Shown: positions 3,928 through 42,268 of the stretch, piece by piece
How positions within the stretch are numbered: the stretch's first letter is position 1
How the letters are laid out: every line of letters begins with the position of its first letter
NCBI GenBank assembly: GCA_016182015.1
Contig: JACOYC010000001.1
Span: forward strand, 1 to 42,268
DNA: 42,268 bases
From: Nanobdellati archaeon
GTDB taxonomy: Archaea > Nanobdellota > Nanobdellia > UBA10117
Direction of reading: 5' to 3'
Translations under genes and position numbers: made by a program
Notes under the pieces: model-generated
What the model was told of the DNA's origin: nothing
Seen by the model: only the letters and a program-made list of their open reading frames with translations
Databases searched by the model: none

Positions 3928-4233
3928 CTAACGATTTACAATCAATCTTGCATCCAGCATTATGTAGTCAATGTAAAACTTCAGCCGGCCATTCCATCTT
4001 ACTACTTCATCATGCAGCATTTCCCTAACAGCCTCTTTTAGCTGGCCTTCCAAATCTGCTTTTCCTGTATCGCGGGTTATTTTCGCAGGATTAAAATAAA
4101 TTAAATTCTCACGCGGCTGGCCATCCTGATTTATGTAGCTGACAGCTACCGGAATCACGCAGCCTCTTGGCTGGCCTGCGAGTATGGAAATTTTTTCTTG
4201 CCAGTCGTCAGCCATGCACATACAAACTGCCAT
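3928..4233 (-). CDS. Unknown 101-aa protein downstream of the polymerase-like gene
   Basis: Not recognised. It has a soluble, mixed alpha/beta composition (GCVIPVAVSYINQDGQPRE, then LEGQLKEAVREMLHDEVVRW and a tyrosine-rich LKFYIDYIMLDARL end). The first ATG gives MAVCMCMADDWQ; the ATG at 4215 (MADDWQEK) is equally plausible. It begins 22 bases or more after the stop of the large polymerase-like gene on the same strand, so the two probably share a transcript. A partner or accessory role is only inferred from this arrangement. Confidence 0.65.
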   Translation of the reverse strand: MAVCMCMADDWQEKISILAGQPRGCVIPVAVSYINQDGQPRENLIYFNPAKITRDTGKADLEGQLKEAVREMLHDEVVRWNGRLKFYIDYIMLDARLIVNR

Positions 4234-4255: not shown

Positions 4256-6565
4256 TCAAGTAAACAATCTGGCCTGCCCGTTCTGCAATGGCTGCGTCAC
4301 GCCAAGCGTGCGCCAGTCCTGCATGTCTGACCGGCCACATAAAATATGTTTCATGGCAGTTCTGCGTTCTTTGTTATTATCTGGATTGTAAAGCGCAGAC
4401 AGTATTCTGTAAAGTGCTGAATCGCCACCAAACAAATGTTTTCTGTAAAATTTATAATCGATTGGCGTTTCGGGCTTCAAAAAATCCTGTTCTGCTACTG
4501 GCAAGCTATTCGAATAACCCCAACAGATTGTTTTTCCTGCCGGCGCTTTCAGAACGCGCTGTGCCTTTACAGATTTTCTGTTGTGCGTTGTTATTGCCAT
4601 CTCGCTGACTTCCCGCTTGACCTTTTTCTCAAATAGCAAGAGTTTTCGGCCGATTGTACCGTCTGCAAGCGGCTTTGCAAGCTGTTCGTAAACATACTGC
4701 AATGGGGTTTCATAGTTGCCATGCATCACAATCTGTTTCAGTAAGTTGGGTATGGACTCACGCTCAAACCTCATCCTGTCGCCGCGCCTGCCAGAAACAG
4801 AAATGCCACTACTGACAAAAGCGCGATTGATTTGTGTTAGGAATTCCTCCGCGCCAAAATTAAACAATGCCTGCGATGTTCCAAGAAGTGCGAAGCTGCC
4901 GCTTGCCGCTATCGTTGACTCTAGGCCTGGTCTGCCCTCCAGCACAACAATATGTTTTGAGTAGTTAGCAATTCGAAGCTCATTTATATCTAAGAAATAT
5001 CTTGCTTCTTTTTGCATATCTGCCAAGCGCCGCTTTGTGTACTCTCTTGCCTGCCCGTATTTTGCATAAAAGACTTTATCAGGTATTCTTCCGTTAATAT
5101 CAAATAGCGGCTGTTCGCAGACTGCGTCAAGTGCGTGCAAATACAAGTACCGCTCTAAATCTGTTGAACTTGCTGCCGCATCTGCAAGCGGCTCCTGCTG
5201 CACAAAATCGAACACGGGCGAAAGCGTGTTTAAGTAAACAATGTAAAATGTCCCCTTGTGCAGGCCTGCTTTCGGCCTGCAAATCTCCCCTGGATTAAAA
5301 AGCCCAAGTTTCTCCTCGAGAAAATCAAATTCCCTGAATGTATTTGTCATGTACTCGCTGGCCAGCACGTTTGTCGCACAAAAATCCCGCCTTGCCCAAA
5401 GCCTGAACGCATTCTGTTTTTTGGATGTTGCACAAACTGCTTCGGGGCTTGTTTCAAGGCCCTGCGCGATTTTGGCAATGACGGGCTTGAAAATATCTCC
5501 GAGGGAAAATAAAACTTCTGTGTCTGCACGTGCATAATCTATAGCTGTGCGTGCCGCTTGCCTGTCGCCGTGCTGCGCCCTGAAAATAAGCCTGCCAAGC
5601 ACATCGTAACCCAAGGCTTTTGTAAACTCCAGACCGGTAAACTTGCACACCGCTTCCAAGTTTTTTTCCGGCAGAAACTGCAGGAACTGCCTTGCAAACG
5701 CATAGTAATCAAGAACGATGAAATCTTTTATCTCTACCCTCTTGGAAAAATCCCCGACGTGCGCGGTAATTTTTGGCTCATCCCCGTACTGCGCTGGCCC
5801 AAATTCACCATCTTCAAGCTCTCTAAGGCTGAGTAAGTCAAAACTCATGCCATTAAAAGTGTGCAGCCATAACGTGTTTGATTTTACGCGACCGATGCGC
5901 ATTATGCCGTCAAGCGTTTCTCCCACTTTGCCGGAACTAATAAGGTGCAATACCGCGCCGCCAATCTCGCCTTCGCCGGAATCCAAAGTTGTAACTATTT
6001 CCTTACGCAACGCGCCGGAAACATCCCTTCGGGCATAAACTGCAGTGTTTACTTCAGTATATAATATATCTGGATTGGCCAGCTCTTCTTCGCACGCAAC
6101 TTTTTTGTTCGTTTCTATGTCCAAGGCACAATCGCCGCAGGCGAGCAGCTCCTCCAGTGTTGCCTGCCCGCCGGTAAATTTTCCAACATCAACTTTTGCA
6201 AACGGGAAGTTTGTGTGCCACTTAAGCCATTCATTTACAGAAATCGTTCTAAATATTTCTCTGTTCCTGCGCATTACTTCTTTAATTTTATCGCGGTCGC
6301 CAAAAACGTGCAAAACTGCGTGATATTTGTCGCTGGCGTACGGCACCTGCATTGTTGTTAAATTAAGTTCGGAAAACGGGTAGGCGGAAAGCCGCTGCTT
6401 AATTGCTTCCGCTTCTGCGGGTGAGAGCTTGCCTGTTGTTATTATCTGCGGCGCGTCTATCTGCATTGTTGCCGGCCCCTGCTCTGTCTGCAAGACAATC
6501 TCGGCAAGCCTGCCTTTCTGCGTGTTAATCGGAAGAACACGGACCACAAATCCAGTCAGGGACAT
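4256..6565 (-). CDS. Divergent family B DNA polymerase relative, exonuclease motifs intact, polymerase motifs degenerate
   Basis: The order of domains is that of family B polymerases. Exo I is ALDIE (D149, E151), Exo II is NGMSFD (N238, D243) and Exo III is YARAD (Y344, D348), so the 3'-5' exonuclease should be functional. At the motif A position the usual VxxDFxSLYP is replaced by VYLNTLSP (residues 443-450), with tyrosine where the metal-binding aspartate should be, and I cannot find a YxDTDS motif C. The C-terminal thumb pattern survives (LLLFEKKVKRE around 642, KTICWGY around 678, PIDYKFYRKHLFGGDSALYRIL around 701). The length, 769 aa, is near normal. I infer a polymerase fold that acts as an exonuclease or DNA-binding factor. 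Inactive archaeal B-type polymerases are known, and this one keeps its nuclease. Confidence 0.8.
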   Translation of the reverse strand: MSLTGFVVRVLPINTQKGRLAEIVLQTEQGPATMQIDAPQIITTGKLSPAEAEAIKQRLSAYPFSELNLTTMQVPYASDKYHAVLHVFGDRDKIKEVMRRNREIFRTISVNEWLKWHTNFPFAKVDVGKFTGGQATLEELLACGDCALDIETNKKVACEEELANPDILYTEVNTAVYARRDVSGALRKEIVTTLDSGEGEIGGAVLHLISSGKVGETLDGIMRIGRVKSNTLWLHTFNGMSFDLLSLRELEDGEFGPAQYGDEPKITAHVGDFSKRVEIKDFIVLDYYAFARQFLQFLPEKNLEAVCKFTGLEFTKALGYDVLGRLIFRAQHGDRQAARTAIDYARADTEVLFSLGDIFKPVIAKIAQGLETSPEAVCATSKKQNAFRLWARRDFCATNVLASEYMTNTFREFDFLEEKLGLFNPGEICRPKAGLHKGTFYIVYLNTLSPVFDFVQQEPLADAAASSTDLERYLYLHALDAVCEQPLFDINGRIPDKVFYAKYGQAREYTKRRLADMQKEARYFLDINELRIANYSKHIVVLEGRPGLESTIAASGSFALLGTSQALFNFGAEEFLTQINRAFVSSGISVSGRRGDRMRFERESIPNLLKQIVMHGNYETPLQYVYEQLAKPLADGTIGRKLLLFEKKVKREVSEMAITTHNRKSVKAQRVLKAPAGKTICWGYSNSLPVAEQDFLKPETPIDYKFYRKHLFGGDSALYRILSALYNPDNNKERRTAMKHILCGRSDMQDWRTLGVTQPLQNGQARLFT

Positions 6566-6615
6566 AGAAACGCAAGCAGTGAAAAACTTTTAAGACTTCT
6601 GCTTTTCAAGTATGT
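6566..6615. promoter_or_regulatory. Divergent promoter of the polymerase-like module
   Basis: Only 50 bases separate the two opposing start codons. The central AAACTTTTAAGAC (about 6580-6592) reads as a TATA-like box in both directions (CTTAAAAG on the minus strand, about 20-25 bases from the polymerase-like ATG). Shared control of both arms is likely. Confidence 0.55.
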
Positions 6616-7653
6616 ATGCCAGTCCCGTCGACATATTCATTTTCAAACCCGCTGAAGACGTACAGGCTATGGCATGTGCAGGAACCGCTTGTAGGCGAGA
6701 TGCTCAATTTGAAAAAACCATACCAAGCAGTTTTTGACTGCGTACGACAGCTCTGCGCGCAGAAGCCTCCGAAGGCTCTGGATTTATACAGGGAGCTACA
6801 TGTGCGGCTTAAAGAGAGAGTGGACAATGCGTGTTTGAGTGAAAAAGATGTAGTTTTTGTTACTGGGATTTCAAAAAATATGACTGGTGTTGGTAACATT
6901 GCGGGCGAAAAACCAAAAAGTGTCGGCCTCGACTTTTTTTCAGATTTGATGGCATCTGCAATGGCGCTTGGAGATGCGTGCAGGCAGGCATACCAAACGT
7001 GCAAAAGCGAGGGATTTTTCCCGGATCTGGATTCAATTGTAATTGTCGCGGTTGCGCCGGTGCTCATTCCAATCAGTTTACAATTATGTGAAGAAAACTT
7101 GAACCTGCGCGGGGTTCGAGAAATGGAAAACGCTCGCGGTGTTTTTCATAACCTTAGGTTTATTCCAACATTCAAAGGCGATTTAGATTCAATTTCTGCA
7201 GCAAGAGCAGATGTAAACATGCTTGGGTTCGGCACGCTTGAGCGTAACATCAATGAAGAAGATGCACTCTCGCTGGAAGGCACGGTTGCAAATTATGCGT
7301 TCAGGGAGTCTGTTTACAGCCCGGCAATTGCGGAGAAAGTTTTTACAGAAGAAAACATTGTTTTACTGAGGAAACATGCATATGTGAACCGGAGAATTAC
7401 CGCCGCGTCCTGCGAAACAATCGCACGGCGTTGCAGGCGCGCATACCTGATAGCCGGCCTGTCAGATTATGCAGGTCCGACTTCCGGAATCTTCAGACAT
7501 GTCCCAACAGACCTTTACGATGTTGTGGGCGGAAGAGGCGGCGTTATGAGAAATACTATAATCAGCACAGAAGGTATTGCCAGCCCAAGTGCGGTTAGAA
7601 TTATCGCGGGCTTTTTTGCAGAGCTGTGGCGGGCGAGGGCAGGAATGATATAA
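6616..7653 (+). CDS. Unknown 345-aa protein, divergent from the polymerase-like gene
   Basis: I do not recognise this family. It is soluble, with a helical N-terminal third, a block DVVFVTGISKNMTGVGNI near residue 78 followed by KPKSVGLDFFSDLMASAMALGDACRQAY, and a hydrophobic strand SIVIVAVAPVLIPISLQL near residue 140. The C-terminal part has a glycine-rich YDVVGGRGGVMRNTIIST. It overlaps the next gene by one base (TAATG), so it is cotranscribed with a Cas4/RecB-like nuclease. That suggests work on DNA ends, but this is inference from context only. Confidence 0.75.
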   Translation: MPVPSTYSFSNPLKTYRLWHVQEPLVGEMLNLKKPYQAVFDCVRQLCAQKPPKALDLYRELHVRLKERVDNACLSEKDVVFVTGISKNMTGVGNIAGEKPKSVGLDFFSDLMASAMALGDACRQAYQTCKSEGFFPDLDSIVIVAVAPVLIPISLQLCEENLNLRGVREMENARGVFHNLRFIPTFKGDLDSISAARADVNMLGFGTLERNINEEDALSLEGTVANYAFRESVYSPAIAEKVFTEENIVLLRKHAYVNRRITAASCETIARRCRRAYLIAGLSDYAGPTSGIFRHVPTDLYDVVGGRGGVMRNTIISTEGIASPSAVRIIAGFFAELWRARAGMI

Positions 7654-8603
7654 TGGAATTGAAACCATGTATTCAAAGTGCAAACGGCGTACCGCTGGAG
7701 TTTTTGCTTTGCGAAAGAACTGACAGGTGTGTTTTACAACTTAACATACCTGCAAGTGAAAAATCCTGTGCGCAGCATGTTGCAGAAAAAATCGATGCGG
7801 AAACACTTGCCGCCTTACATGCTGCCACGTCTAAAAAAGGCTATAAAATAGCGCCGATAGAATTCCTAATCGCACGCCTGCAGAACTCAGACTGGCCCGT
7901 AACAATAGTTGGCGAAGGGTGTGGCAGGGATGTCCCTCTTACCAGAATAAATAAAACATACAGATTTGTGCCACTCGAACTTGATTATCATGCTGTTGCG
8001 CATTATGCTGCAAGAGCGAGCGCTCAAGATGCCTGCCTTATTTTTAACGTTCTGTCAAATGTTGCTGAAAAAGAACTTCCGTTCAAACCCAAACCCAGCC
8101 TGATCGGCCAGATTGGAACTTCAGAGCATGCGCTGCAGCTTACACAATTCGGAGACGACTGTGCACACAATGAAATCTGGCAGGAACTCGGGCAGCAACC
8201 AATGCCAAGAACTAAATACTGCGAAAAAGAGCTAGAAGCAAGGCTTGAAATTTCGGGAAAAGAAGTTGTTATTCGGGGCCACGCAGACGCCCTGCTAAAA
8301 ATTATTGACTCCGAAAATAATGTGCGCGGGATTATGGTTGTTGACTTAAAACACAGACAGTACAATTCACAAATGGAGCTGGAGTATTTTGTAAGACAAA
8401 CTTTGATTTACGGAATTGCGGCTTCGCAGATTACTGAAATTGTACCCGAATATTATCTGCTCGTTACCGCGCGCTCGCCATTCGGAGAGAGGCCAGGCTA
8501 CTCGAGAAAGCAGGTGCCTGTTATTACGCGAGAAGGGCCGGCAAGAGCGCATGAAATCTGCTGGCTGTTTCAGGCGCGGCGATGGGAACCAAATTTGCTT
8601 TAA
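7653..8603 (+). CDS. Cas4/RecB-like PD-(D/E)XK nuclease
   Basis: Catalytic pattern of the RecB/Cas4 nuclease clan, counted from the ATG at 7653: H159 (in TSEHAL), D212 (RGHADALL), D231-x-K233 (VVDLKHR) and Q249-x3-Y253 (RQTLIYGIAA). The family cuts or trims DNA ends. I chose the ATG at 7653 over the upstream in-frame start at 7626 because it overlaps the stop of the preceding gene as TAATG. No cysteine cluster like that of true Cas4 is visible and there is no CRISPR array here, so a stand-alone RecB-like nuclease is more likely. The frame stops at 8603, but a continuation is readable in the +1 frame. Confidence 0.8.
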   Translation: MELKPCIQSANGVPLEFLLCERTDRCVLQLNIPASEKSCAQHVAEKIDAETLAALHAATSKKGYKIAPIEFLIARLQNSDWPVTIVGEGCGRDVPLTRINKTYRFVPLELDYHAVAHYAARASAQDACLIFNVLSNVAEKELPFKPKPSLIGQIGTSEHALQLTQFGDDCAHNEIWQELGQQPMPRTKYCEKELEARLEISGKEVVIRGHADALLKIIDSENNVRGIMVVDLKHRQYNSQMELEYFVRQTLIYGIAASQITEIVPEYYLLVTARSPFGERPGYSRKQVPVITREGPARAHEICWLFQARRWEPNLL

Positions 8604-8703
8604 GAAAGAGGTTTGTGATTTTGTTGCGGAAAACGTTGGGGCGGGCAGAAAGGCGCCGAGAGATATTTTAACAAAATACGTGCCGGAGAAGTATGTTATG
8701 TGA
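8571..8703 (+). pseudogene. Frame-shifted C-terminal continuation of the nuclease gene
   Basis: Immediately after the nuclease reading frame degenerates (ARRWEPNLL-stop), the +1 frame reads CFKKEVCDFVAENVGAG then RKAPRDILTKYVPEKYVM and stops at 8703. It has good codon and amino-acid character and no other start of its own. The simplest reading is a one-base indel near 8571-8600 in the genome or assembly, giving a full-length protein of about 350 aa. Programmed frameshifting cannot be excluded. Confidence 0.6.
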
Positions 8704-9068
8704 ATATTCTCTAGATTTCTGATGTGCTTTGAGGCAATGCAAAACTTCGGTTTTGCAAGTCTCCAATCACTTTATGAGTTTGAAAATCTTGGTTTTACCA
8801 AGGCGTTCTGAGGTAGCGCCGAACTTTTGTTCTGCGAAACCTCCCAGTCGCAATAATTATTAGACGCTCCGGATTTCTCCGAAGCGTCTGGAGGCATCGT
8901 CGAAGCCTTACGGGCTTCTTCGGGGCCTCCAACCGCTAAAAATATAAGCGCCCGTGAAGCCCGAAGACTTAACGAGCGCTTGGAGGTAAGCAATGGCCAC
9001 GGTTTAGAAAAACTCGTGGTTACGTTCGGCCTTGGCCGAACGTCTCCGTTAGGAGCTTGATATACATT
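8704..9068. other. Non-coding island of tandem hairpins
   Basis: No credible ORF in about 365 bases, but the region is packed with inverted repeats: GCAAAAC-ttc-G(G)TTTTGC, a nested GAGGT...ACCTC arm, AGACGCT...AGCGTCT (8862-8889), GGAGGC...GCCTCC with an inner GAAGCC...GGCTTC, CCACG...CGTGG, and the perfect 10-bp palindrome ACGTTCGGCC-tt-GGCCGAACGT at 9022-9043. An AAAATATAAG box occurs near 8939-8948. I looked for tRNA, SRP RNA and RNase P landmarks and found none. It may be an unrecognised structured RNA or a mobile-hairpin island. Confidence 0.55.
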
Positions 9069-27145: not shown

Positions 27146-28792
27146 TTATTCTAAAATAAAACTTAGCTCTCCGCCATCAGCGGCCCCTAGAATCATCTTG
27201 CCCAATTTAGATTTCTTATGAATCCTCAGCTCGCCAGTGCGCGGGACTTGCAGCGTGGCGACTTCCCGGCCGGCAATCAGCATCTTCACGCTTCTTGCGG
27301 AAGCCGGCAGGTAAATAGAAACGAACTTGCTTGCCTCGCGGAATTTGTAGCTAACGGATTCGCCGGCAGATGTTCTCTCATGGCTGCGCCCTTTCTTTTT
27401 GATTGGCACGACAACAGTCTGCTCGCCGTACGTATAAATCTCATACTCAAGATCCTGCGTTTCAAAGTCGCGGACTTCCACGACTGGCCTTGACAAATCA
27501 GCTTCTACCATTCCAGTTGGCACTTTTACTTTCATGGCCATTTCAAAAACTTTTTCCACTGCGCCGTCGCGGATGAAAACCACGGTGTCAATTATTTGTG
27601 GTATCATTCCCAGCTCGACACGGCCGATAAATCTCTGCACCGAATCGATTGGGTTTGTTGCATGAATTACTCCTGCCAATCCAATTCCCGCTAATCTTAA
27701 GTCAGAATACAATCTGAAATCCTCTGTGATGCGCATCTCGTCGAAGATTGTGTAATCCGGACGAGTGAGCAACATTACGTTGTGAATGTCATCGCGATTG
27801 CCAAGATTTTTTGAGTACTGCACAACTTCCGGCGGAACTTGTAAGTCCCGGGGCGACTCAATTGTCTTTACAATCTTATTCAGTTTTACATAAACCTTTG
27901 CCAATGCCGAGGCGAATGTAGTCTTGCCAGAGCCAGGCGCGCCCGATATTAAAATTCCTGTCGCGGAGTTTTTTAGCCTCTGTAAAAGTTTTGCATTTAA
28001 TTTGTAGTCCTCAATCTCAAGAGTTGCAACTGGCCTGACCGCGGTTATCTCCCAGCCATCAGAAAATGGCGGCCTTGCAATCACGACTCGAAAATTCTTG
28101 AATTGTAAAATTGTCATTCCTGGATTTGTGTATTCGATGAAAGAGCCTGCCGCGAGTTTTGTTTTTTCTGTTACGTCCGCGGCAAATGTTTTTACGTCAT
28201 GCTGTGTCAGCGGGTTTTCTGATAGCTGGACAAATTGCCAGCTTCCTGGTTTTCCGCGTTTTGCAGTTGGAGCAGTGTCCTCTTTCAAATGTATGGACAT
28301 TGTTTCAGCGTCAAAAAACTTTTCGATTGCCAGCGCGCCGACTTCACGTGCGGCAACAGGGAGGATTAGAATTGTTTTTACACCAAGTGCCTCGGCCACA
28401 GTTGCTTGGACGCGGTCGCCAGTTATTAATGTTGCCTTTAGTTTTACTGCTGTCTCGCGGATTAAATCGTCCATCTCGCCGACACGTGCGCCCTTGATTC
28501 TCTCAACAGTCGGCCTCGCGCCATGGAACTCAAATTTTATTTTTCCTTCTGCAGCCAAACTTTGGAGGGTTTTAATTTCCTCAAGCCCCAAAAATCCTTC
28601 TGCCTGGTTAAAATTTGCTTGGTGTTCTAATTCAGCAATAACTGCGATTGGTATCACGAGCCTGCCGGCTATCTCACCTTTTTGTATAAGCTCTGAAACC
28701 TTCTTTTCTATTATTATAGAAGTATCAGCCACGTATACGTTATCGGTATTCGGTTTCTGGTTTTCGGTTTCTGGTTCTTCTGTTTTGTTCAT
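27146..28792 (-). CDS. PIN-domain and PilT-like ATPase fusion protein
   Basis: A 548-residue archaeal fusion. The N-terminal PIN nuclease domain has D in YVADTSIII, E in AVIAELEHQAN and D in TGDRVQATVAEALG (about residues 20-145). The centre is a secretion-type/PilT ATPase with Walker A GAPGSGKTTF (near 287), and the C-terminal segment has VEVRDFETQDLEYEIYTYGEQTVVVP and a KH-like end. Such proteins are common in archaea; the role is thought to involve RNA but is not settled. It ends one base from tRNA-Arg on the other strand. Confidence 0.88.
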   Translation of the reverse strand: MNKTEEPETENQKPNTDNVYVADTSIIIEKKVSELIQKGEIAGRLVIPIAVIAELEHQANFNQAEGFLGLEEIKTLQSLAAEGKIKFEFHGARPTVERIKGARVGEMDDLIRETAVKLKATLITGDRVQATVAEALGVKTILILPVAAREVGALAIEKFFDAETMSIHLKEDTAPTAKRGKPGSWQFVQLSENPLTQHDVKTFAADVTEKTKLAAGSFIEYTNPGMTILQFKNFRVVIARPPFSDGWEITAVRPVATLEIEDYKLNAKLLQRLKNSATGILISGAPGSGKTTFASALAKVYVKLNKIVKTIESPRDLQVPPEVVQYSKNLGNRDDIHNVMLLTRPDYTIFDEMRITEDFRLYSDLRLAGIGLAGVIHATNPIDSVQRFIGRVELGMIPQIIDTVVFIRDGAVEKVFEMAMKVKVPTGMVEADLSRPVVEVRDFETQDLEYEIYTYGEQTVVVPIKKKGRSHERTSAGESVSYKFREASKFVSIYLPASARSVKMLIAGREVATLQVPRTGELRIHKKSKLGKMILGAADGGELSFILE

Positions 28793-39990: not shown

Positions 39991-42268
39991 TTAATACGCC
40001 GCTGCCGCGGTGAACGTTACTGTGGAAGTAAGATTGCTTGGCGGCTCCTGCGCAGGTATTGTTACGTTGATGTGTGCGCGAATCTCATCGTTCCCATCTG
40101 TAAAGTTAGTCATGTTTGCTATCATTACTGGCGAGCCGGCCAGCGGGATGTTAAGGAATGATGCGATAAGTTCTCTTACTGCATCCCGAACTGAACCTGT
40201 TTCATTTACTTCTGACTTGAATTGAAAATATATATTGGGATTTAGTATGCTGGTAAATATGCTTGTTGATTCAATTGTTATGTTTGTTGCAAAATTTCCG
40301 GTGTTGTTTATTACGAACGGCAGTGGATTGTAGCCTGCGTCCGTTCCTGTGCTGTTAAAACCGCCTGGCTGTAGCGGCGCAAATGAAACATCATATGGGT
40401 TTATACTTATGCTTATAGTTTTTAGCAGTGAGAAATTCTGTATGAATGTTACATTTGTATTGTTGCTGCTGTCGTTCAGCATTATGTACCAGCCGATGTT
40501 CTGGCCTCCTTCCAAACTAAAGTTAGTCCATGTAAAATTTACGAGCTGTTTTGTGGTGTTTCCGCCAAGCTGCTGCGGCGAGCCGTACTTGCCTGTCCAG
40601 TTTATCCATGTGCCTGTTTCATTTGTAACAAGATAAGCCCATGTTAAGTTTGTTTCATCCTGCGCCTGCGCGGACAGGTAAAGTTCCCCGAACTGCGAGA
40701 GTGAGTTTGCGCTCTGGGCCTGCGTGTCCCAGGTTGGCGGGGTTGTATCTGTGCCTGGGCCTGGACCTTGGCCTGTCGGATTATATGTCTGCTCAGTAGA
40801 CCACGCGCTTCTTGCAAATCCAGTGTCTATTGTTTGAACAGACCAATAGTATGTTGTATCATTCGGAATCGCCAGCGAAACCCTCTGGCGCTTTTGCATG
40901 TTGCCGAACAACCCGCCAGCTGATGGGCCACCACCGCCATACGCGCCGGAAGTTATATTCTGACAGCCGGTGCATGTTCCAATGCGCAGATTGTAGTAAA
41001 GTCCGCCAGTTGGTGTTTCTGTATCTGAGCCTGCATTCCACGTGAAGTTTATGCTGTTCAAACCATTTGAAGCGGTGCTGAACGCCGTTGGCGGGCTTGG
41101 CTGTGTGTTTGTATTGTTCAGGTGTATGTCATTTGTATAAATTTGCGTTACGTTCTTCCCGCCGGCAGGTGTTGTCTGGCCAGTAACCAACAAATCCAGA
41201 TCAGAATCGTTTGTAAAATCAGCAAGCACTATGTCGCCGTGATTCGCTGGAGTAATTTCAGACTCAAACGGAACATTATTCTGAAAATTTGTGTTATTAT
41301 TAAGATAAACCTGAACATCTGCCGCAGGTGTTGTTGCATTATTAAAACCCTGCGCAACCAAATCAAGCCAGCCATCATTATTAATATCGCCAAACGCGGC
41401 GTTGCCATTGATGAGCGGCGTAATATTGGCCTGCCATGTCGCATTTTCCATAAGCGCGGTTTTGTTATTAATATAAACCCTTGCTGTCTGTGGTTGCCGA
41501 CCAGCTATCAACTGTATTAAATCCATCAGACCATCGTTGTTTATATCTGCAGCATGCAATGTAGAAGTTGACGAGTTAGTAAGATTAACACTAAAAGTAA
41601 CATTATAGTTGAAGTTTGTTCCGTTGTTTGTATAAATCCCTGTTTGATTGGTCAGCGCCTTTTTGCCCGCTATCAGCAAGTCCAGCCTTGTATCATTATC
41701 AAAGTCCGCAAGCACAATAGATGAGTAATTCAGTCCCATAAGCTCGCGGCTGAATGCTGCGCTGTAATTCAAGTATGTGTGGTTGTTAAGATAGACGCCA
41801 GTCCATGAGAAATGCCTTGTCAAAGGCGCTACTGTGAAAAAGAATTCTGCGGTGCCAGATACTACTGCATCTGGCCAGCCATCGTTATTAATATCGCCAA
41901 CCGCTATTGAGCCGTTATATATTGGCGTGAGGTTCGCGCCCCACGTGCTGTTTGCAACAAATTTTGTTCCATTATTCGTGTAAACGAAAATCTTGCGGTT
42001 TGGCAATAATATTGTATCGTTCTGCCCGGAAATTATCAAATCAAGCCTGCCATCATTATCAAAATCTGCCAATGCCAGCGCCCCACCGCCAACCGGCGTT
42101 ATATTCGCCTCCCAAGTCATGTTATGTATCATGCCGTACAGATTATCACTTGTTTTTCCGTAAGTATATACGCGCGTGACTGGGCTCGGAATTGTTGTAC
42201 TTAAATTCAATCCCATTATTACAAAATCCATAAAACCATCATTGTCAATATCGCCGGTAGCTATCGCA
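39991..42268 (-). CDS. Large FG-GAP/VCBS-repeat surface protein, 5' end outside the window
   Basis: The frame is open to the window edge (AIATGDIDNDGFMDF is still readable before the first internal Met), so the N-terminus is missing. At least seven FG-GAP/VCBS units with calcium-binding loops follow: DFDNDGRLDL, DINNDGWPDA, DFDNDTRLDL, DINNDGLMDL, DINNDGWLDL, DFTNDSDLDL. Then comes a fibronectin III-like domain (PSPPTAFSTASNGLNSINFTW), a beta domain with DTTPPTWDTQAQSANS, and a C-terminal domain shared with the 199-residue protein. It is rich in NxS/T. It is likely an extracellular beta-propeller adhesin or S-layer-like protein. Confidence 0.85.
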   Translation of the reverse strand, partial: AIATGDIDNDGFMDFVIMGLNLSTTIPSPVTRVYTYGKTSDNLYGMIHNMTWEANITPVGGGALALADFDNDGRLDLIISGQNDTILLPNRKIFVYTNNGTKFVANSTWGANLTPIYNGSIAVGDINNDGWPDAVVSGTAEFFFTVAPLTRHFSWTGVYLNNHTYLNYSAAFSRELMGLNYSSIVLADFDNDTRLDLLIAGKKALTNQTGIYTNNGTNFNYNVTFSVNLTNSSTSTLHAADINNDGLMDLIQLIAGRQPQTARVYINNKTALMENATWQANITPLINGNAAFGDINNDGWLDLVAQGFNNATTPAADVQVYLNNNTNFQNNVPFESEITPANHGDIVLADFTNDSDLDLLVTGQTTPAGGKNVTQIYTNDIHLNNTNTQPSPPTAFSTASNGLNSINFTWNAGSDTETPTGGLYYNLRIGTCTGCQNITSGAYGGGGPSAGGLFGNMQKRQRVSLAIPNDTTYYWSVQTIDTGFARSAWSTEQTYNPTGQGPGPGTDTTPPTWDTQAQSANSLSQFGELYLSAQAQDETNLTWAYLVTNETGTWINWTGKYGSPQQLGGNTTKQLVNFTWTNFSLEGGQNIGWYIMLNDSSNNTNVTFIQNFSLLKTISISINPYDVSFAPLQPGGFNSTGTDAGYNPLPFVINNTGNFATNITIESTSIFTSILNPNIYFQFKSEVNETGSVRDAVRELIASFLNIPLAGSPVMIANMTNFTDGNDEIRAHINVTIPAQEPPSNLTSTVTFTAAAAY

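Follow-up and report, generated by a model that had tools for sequence, protein, structure and literature searches.

A family-B DNA polymerase relative in DPANN archaea that retains its exonuclease motifs, has lost its polymerase motifs and is often encoded beside a candidate Cas4/AddB-type nuclease

In archaea of one DPANN (Woesearchaeota-like) class, a large and fast-evolving family of proteins descended from family-B DNA polymerases (PolB) has kept all DEDDy exonuclease residues, which are the most conserved positions in an otherwise drifting protein, and has lost the catalytic aspartates of polymerase motifs A and C. The family member analysed here, termed exo-only PolB, is encoded in a 42,268-nucleotide stretch of contig JACOYC010000001.1 from a Nanobdellati archaeon (hereafter the window), and 40 homologues show this pattern even where identity falls to approximately 15–20 %. 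The homology to PolB, the conservation and loss of motifs, the pairing with a divergent nuclease gene and the co-occurrence of the two genes are direct observations. The reading that we consider best supported, with a probability of roughly 0.6, is that the dismantled polymerase may function as a PCNA-linked 3′–5′ exonuclease in repair or end processing, accompanied in roughly half of the family by a Cas4/AddB-like partner.

The gene is read on the minus strand (6565 to 4256), starts with ATG and contains no internal stop. Its features are as follows.

4256–6565, minus strand: exo-only PolB-like protein, 769 aa; open frame, 40 family members, profile matches to archaeal PolB.
6113–6121, minus strand: Exo I, D149-I-E151 (reads LDIE); D and E in 40/40 members.
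5837–5854, minus strand: Exo II, N238...D243 (reads NGMSFD); D in 27/27 of the first alignment and 38/40 of the joint alignment, N in 34/40.
5522–5536, minus strand: Exo III, Y344...D348 (reads YARAD); Y and D in 40/40 members.
5219–5242, minus strand: motif A remnant VYLNTLSP, with Tyr444 at the catalytic Asp position; Asp in 1/40 (L048), Tyr in 24.
4952–4966, minus strand: motif C remnant, with NYSKH at the site of YGDTD; Asp pair in no member.
4598–4828, minus strand: thumb region (SSGISVSGRRGD...KKVKREVSEM); profile match to the archaeal PolB thumb and to same-class canonical PolBs.
4262–4276, minus strand: C-terminal QARLF, PIP-box-like (QxxLF); QxxLF/QxxLxxF tails are enriched among members.

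The original prediction, which described complete Exo motifs (D149/E151, N238/D243 and Y344/D348), a Tyr in place of the motif A Asp, no YxDTDS and a retained thumb, was borne out at each of these sites. Motif A of the window protein reads IVYLNTLSP, as opposed to VFDFRSLYP, with its Asp, in active PolBs, while the motif C segment ANYSKHIVVLEG (ANYSKHIVVL) aligns with VIYGDTDSIF, and profile positions 605–696 match archaeal PolB thumbs.

As a single sequence, the window protein has neither a Pfam nor a PDB match, so profiles were needed to test the motif-based identification. Relatives in the same genus, from public MAGs that bear the labels 'DPANN group archaeon' and 'Candidatus Woesearchaeota archaeon', share 63 % and 49 % identity with it, and further relatives occur in the same family and class. 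A profile of family members (A3, 24 rows) matched 19 canonical PolBs of the same class with an hhalign probability of 99.6 % (E=5e-25) and, in the PDB, archaeal PolBs, 8s84 and 2jgu among them, at E~1e-36, over two stretches corresponding to the exonuclease domain and the thumb. The profile alignment, which had been proposed as a check alongside the original prediction, thus shows that the gene genuinely descends from PolB, with significant similarity to family B and with ordinary archaeal PolB as its nearest type. With PolB2 proteins from the same class the probability was only 4.7 %, and membership of PolB2 was rejected on this value together with the intact Exo I and III and the lost motif A and C acids. 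In a tree built from exonuclease domains, the family falls cleanly apart from canonical PolBs, although the support of the split is only 0.15 and a single origin is therefore not established. The AlphaFold2 model of the window protein, built from a three-row alignment (window, L076 and L077), reached a pLDDT of 39; at this value the palm is unreadable in three dimensions, and the register of motifs A and C is that of the sequence alignment.

Forty members from one phylum were read (25 in a first set and 15 held out), most of them from metagenome assemblies, and the size of the family depends on profile thresholds. In the full-length alignment of the first 25, mean column identity is approximately 17 %; besides Met1, only D149, E151, D243, D286, K316, Y344 and D348 are invariant. 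All seven lie inside the exonuclease domain, and the DEDDy catalytic set accounts for five. The held-out members, which were found later by profile and played no part in defining the pattern, carry D149, E151, D243, Y344 and D348 in 15/15 cases and a motif A Asp in 0/15. Across the family, the DxE, Nx3–4D and Yx3D signatures are thus kept, with D149, E151, Y344 and D348 in 40/40 and D243 in 38/40; in L041 the corresponding NIQKYD is intact and is shifted by an insertion in the joint alignment. Because the motif pattern recurs in 40 homologues, in which no residues are better conserved than the exonuclease acids, it is not attributable to chance. By the hallmarks of an active PolB, the motif A Asp persists in one of the 40 members and the YxDTDS Asp pair in none, the palm segment contains no column with a conserved acid at either position, and a recognisable motif B is gone as well in comparison with canonical PolB. 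The single exception at motif A (LVDFFP) is L048 (5902–8598), from genome G149, which is 97 % complete, yields no canonical PolB match and carries a PCNA gene directly downstream of exo-only PolB.

The original prediction was silent on a second gene, encoded divergently from exo-only PolB. This head-to-head partner lies beside it in about 18 genomes, approximately 50 bp away, and has the following features in the window.

6566–6615, no strand: intergenic region of 50 bp between the divergent genes, with a TATA-like TTTTAA at 6588–6593; spacing and element recur in other loci.
6616–7653, plus strand: N-terminal domain of the partner, 345 aa; about 18 genomes have a homologous divergent neighbour.
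7626–8603, plus strand: partner four-Cys PD-(D/E)XK nuclease ORF, with GHADA at 8277–8291 and D-L-K at 8343–8351; frame-shifted near 8526.
8567–8623, plus strand: remnant of the C-terminal Cys cluster, out of frame; compared with L076, 110 bp are deleted at 8526.

The TTTTAA of the window lies about 22–23 nt from both start codons. The start codons are 33–62 bp apart in 12 of 18 loci, and a TATA-like element is present in most, usually in the middle of the gap; shared leaderless bidirectional transcription of the pair would be the natural reading. In the window the partner consists of two overlapping ORFs (6616–7653 and 7626–8603), which elsewhere form one fused protein of 660–860 aa. Nine fused partners share invariant C446, G468, H472, D522, D535, K537, Q549, Y553, C650, C653 and C659, which follow the four-Cys nuclease layout of C, GxxxH, D, DxK, QxxxY and CxxC...C. 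In the window copy, the three C-terminal Cys have fallen out of frame, and the nuclease half of the module may have been broken there by the 110-bp deletion, or the assembly may be wrong at this point. Downstream, at 8840–9060, the window contains an intergenic G+C-rich hairpin sequence (GAAGCCTTACGGGCTTC at 8902); a similar G+C-rich sequence lies 3′ of the nuclease gene in L076 and may represent a dispersed element of the genus.

No curated nuclease model matches the partner above its cut-off (PF12705, TIGR00372). Below it, PF12705 matches four of the nine fused partners (best E=0.0014, 19 bits against a cut-off of 22) and the Cas4 model TIGR00372 matches two (best E=0.0094), while one partner member has a PHROG exonuclease match at E=1.1e-6. 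These matches are weak but consistent with a nuclease of the Cas4/AddB type. The N-terminal part of approximately 300 aa has no database match, and its AlphaFold2 model, from a three-row alignment of the window, L076 and L077, has a pLDDT of 46. Conserved K/RxGxDxFS and PVxPVxxP-like motifs are present in this part (window 6616–7653 and the fused homologues in alignment A4), which is possibly a new domain.

The partner was detected in 14 of 371 genomes sampled from one phylum, and exo-only PolB is present in 14/14 of them; with approximately 42 exo-only genomes, counted as profile matches minus canonical PolB matches, the hypergeometric chance of this co-occurrence is about 6e-15. About half of the exo-only family is without the partner, including a group named 'LDIEIP' and the f37 subfamily (L046, L049, L051, L052 and L121). 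The f37 gene in L051 lies upstream of genes for RIO1 kinase and a KH-domain protein, an order that suggests vertical inheritance at a fixed site. The neighbours of this subfamily, namely RIO1, the KH protein and S3Ae, are plain housekeeping genes.

A second, possible link is with the sliding clamp. C-terminal QxxLF or QxxLxxF tails occur in 7/28 members of the exploratory set, and this pattern, picked after inspection, was then fixed for the held-out members, in which it occurs in 4/13 against 0.12 expected from shuffles and a frequency of about 3 % in other ORFs. Such tails are present in about a quarter of members, most being without them, and the strict PIP box Qxxhxx[FYWL] was found in 1/25 members, with no enrichment. 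In G149 and G404, exo-only PolB has a PCNA gene as its neighbour, and in G145 and G328, two genomes of the same genus, the partner does; together these amount to 4/40 genomes and three independent lineages. The tails and the gene adjacency together suggest putative clamp binding.

These observations may be accommodated by the following scheme. The gene of an archaeal family-B DNA polymerase would have been duplicated, and the duplicate would have lost catalysis along with the aspartates of motifs A and C and the canonical motif region that separates these motifs. The parts that persist are the exonuclease site and the thumb and, judging from the sequence pattern, the N-terminal region, while the palm has drifted; this remaining scaffold may bind DNA and serve the DEDDy 3′–5′ exonuclease. 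The protein would then be a stand-alone 3′–5′ DNA exonuclease that serves DNA-end processing or repair linked to replication; in part of the family at least, its short C-terminal motif would anchor it to PCNA. Roughly half of the members would act jointly with the divergently encoded, co-regulated PD-(D/E)XK nuclease, which is of Cas4/AddB type and whose four Cys probably coordinate an Fe–S cluster. Exo-only PolB may digest 3′ ends while the partner cuts or resects with the opposite polarity at the end or flap; the Cas4 protein Sso0001 and AddB both have 5′–3′ nuclease activity (PMC3466216). The exonuclease activity, PCNA binding, Fe–S cluster, complex formation and substrate are all predictions from sequence. 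A tentative extension is that PCNA-loaded exo-only PolB and the Cas4/AddB-like nuclease form a DPANN end-processing complex, which possibly carries out the resection or flap trimming done elsewhere by RecBCD, AddAB or Dna2, but has no helicase subunit dedicated to it. Several findings count against the exonuclease–partner model, namely the restriction of the tail to about one-quarter of members, PCNA adjacency in only 4/40, the many partner-less members, the frame-shifted nuclease of the window, the Asp of L048 and the pLDDT of 39.

The retained exonuclease might instead proofread in trans, removing mismatched 3′ ends left by the host PolB or PolD and having no role in end resection. The exonucleases of PolB enzymes are proofreaders, and DP1 provides the exonuclease of PolD. 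Such a role would suit the PIP-like tails and the PCNA linkage, as well as the presence of active PolB and PolD in most genomes: an intact canonical PolB was found in 25 of the 29 member genomes tested (in the host of the window it lies on contig C23 and keeps both DFRSLYP and YGDTD), and PolD and PCNA are present in 8/8 genomes tested for both. However, the host polymerases have proofreading sites of their own, the Exo motifs of the canonical PolBs being intact, and two genomes that are 95–97 % complete (G149 and G251) keep the exo-only protein although a canonical PolB match is absent. The tight pairing with a PD-(D/E)XK nuclease would also be left unexplained, and we regard proofreading in trans as unlikely.

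A defence or DNA-degradation system, in which exo-only PolB and the Cas4-like nuclease would destroy foreign or scavenged DNA, is rather improbable. Patchy distribution and fast evolution are in keeping with it, as are the weak matches of the partner to Cas4 and DruK and the over-representation of solo Cas4 in DPANN, for which a defence role is suspected (PMC5704561). The PolB-like protein, however, has no match to any PADLOC model, and the neighbours checked are mostly housekeeping genes, encoding ribosomal proteins, RIO1 kinase, a KH protein, PCNA, a Toprim (archaeal DnaG-like) protein near exo-only PolB in L044, peptidase M3 and a tRNA synthetase. Phage and plasmid collections and three viral-contig scans, which reach close relatives only, yielded no homologue; within that reach, a viral or plasmid origin is unsupported. 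Proofreading and defence are both possible roles, and they explain less than the end-processing exonuclease does.

Other features of the surroundings were recorded separately. A HerA-type helicase gene lies 3′ of the PolB-like gene in G007, and HerA adjacency as a general feature was rejected because it occurs in one genome only. In the window, a small ORF of 101 aa (3928–4233) lies between the PolB-like gene and the uL3–uL4 ribosomal operon; its counterpart in L038 (8501–9001, 166 aa) differs in length, and neither has a Pfam match. The window also encodes a T2SSE-like ATPase joined to a PIN domain (27146–28792) and an FG-GAP repeat protein of 746 aa (39991–42231).

The protein could also be purely structural and enzymatically dead, with its exonuclease residues retained for folding only. 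Inactivated PolBs serving as structural subunits, such as the C-terminal half of Pol epsilon, provide a precedent (PMC2669801, PMC4304020), but Exo motifs decay in the known structural derivatives, whereas here the DEDDy residues show top conservation despite drift to 15–20 % identity, making this explanation quite improbable. That the protein continues to polymerise DNA through an active site that has been rearranged, as in PolB2, is very improbable. PolB2 was once called inactive and was later shown to be active in translesion synthesis (PMC7544198, PMC8764526); it retains, however, the Asp of motif A and one of the pair in motif C, while the 40 members contain no acidic column at either motif. 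Separate PolB2-type proteins (L114–L117), with motif A reading DFSS[ML]FP or DFCSMFP and no YxDTD, coexist with exo-only PolB in G103, G236, G229 and G255. A pseudogene or assembly artefact, suggested by the 110-bp frame-shifting deletion in the adjoining nuclease ORF, is already contradicted by full-length open frames with invariant catalytic residues in 40 genomes and by the independent public assemblies L076 and L077, leaving it a negligible probability.

Among known systems, the reference is the canonical archaeal PolB (PolB3 type, Pfu/KOD), with which exo-only PolB shares the exonuclease domain with Exo I–III, the N-terminal region and the thumb; the canonical enzyme has the motif A Asp, the motif C pair and motif B, which the exo-only family is without. 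PolB2 (Dpo2) is likewise a B-family paralogue with substituted polymerase motifs found beside an active PolB, and is the archaeal group described as inactivated with its exonuclease lost as well (PMC2527604, PMC4104785), Exo I being lost and one motif C Asp kept (PMC2527604, PMC7544198). With Exo I and III lost and motif A and one motif C Asp kept, it presents the reverse of the exo-only pattern, and the suggestion that a nuclease-only PolB would differ from the known inactive archaeal PolBs is now backed by family-level sequence evidence. The two have no profile similarity, and their gene partners may differ: PolB2 is associated with a RadA-like gene and arCOG07300 (PMC4104785), and no RadA-like gene was seen among the subset of exo-only neighbours examined. 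The C-terminal half of Pol epsilon and poxvirus F12 also have dead polymerase sites, but their exonuclease is inactivated or decayed too and they have no nuclease gene partner; a residual exonuclease of F12 has not been excluded (PMC2669801, PMC4304020). Noncanonical prokaryotic X-family proteins are similar in that, according to work cited in PMC12926913, they have lost polymerase activity and kept a 3′–5′ exonuclease, although they have another fold and a PHP-domain nuclease and are unrelated to the exo-only family.

The partner shares with Cas4, AddB and Dna2 the four-Cys arrangement around a PD-(D/E)XK core with GxxxH, DxK and QxxxY; in Cas4 and AddB one Cys precedes and three follow the RecB-type nuclease core (PMC3466216). 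It differs from them in its N-terminal domain of approximately 300 aa, fused or operonic, in having no helicase and in its pairing with exo-only PolB. The open-access literature yielded no account of a B-family lineage of the exo-only kind, nor of this gene pair. The nuclease pairing and the PCNA links suggest that reduced archaea have a DNA-repair module that has so far gone unrecognised, and exo-only PolB may serve as a natural separation-of-function enzyme that reveals the contribution of the PolB scaffold to exonuclease action. Among polymerases, proofreading has been lost repeatedly, either with synthesis retained or together with it; the loss of synthesis with the proofreading chemistry kept would be the missing fourth combination in the B family.
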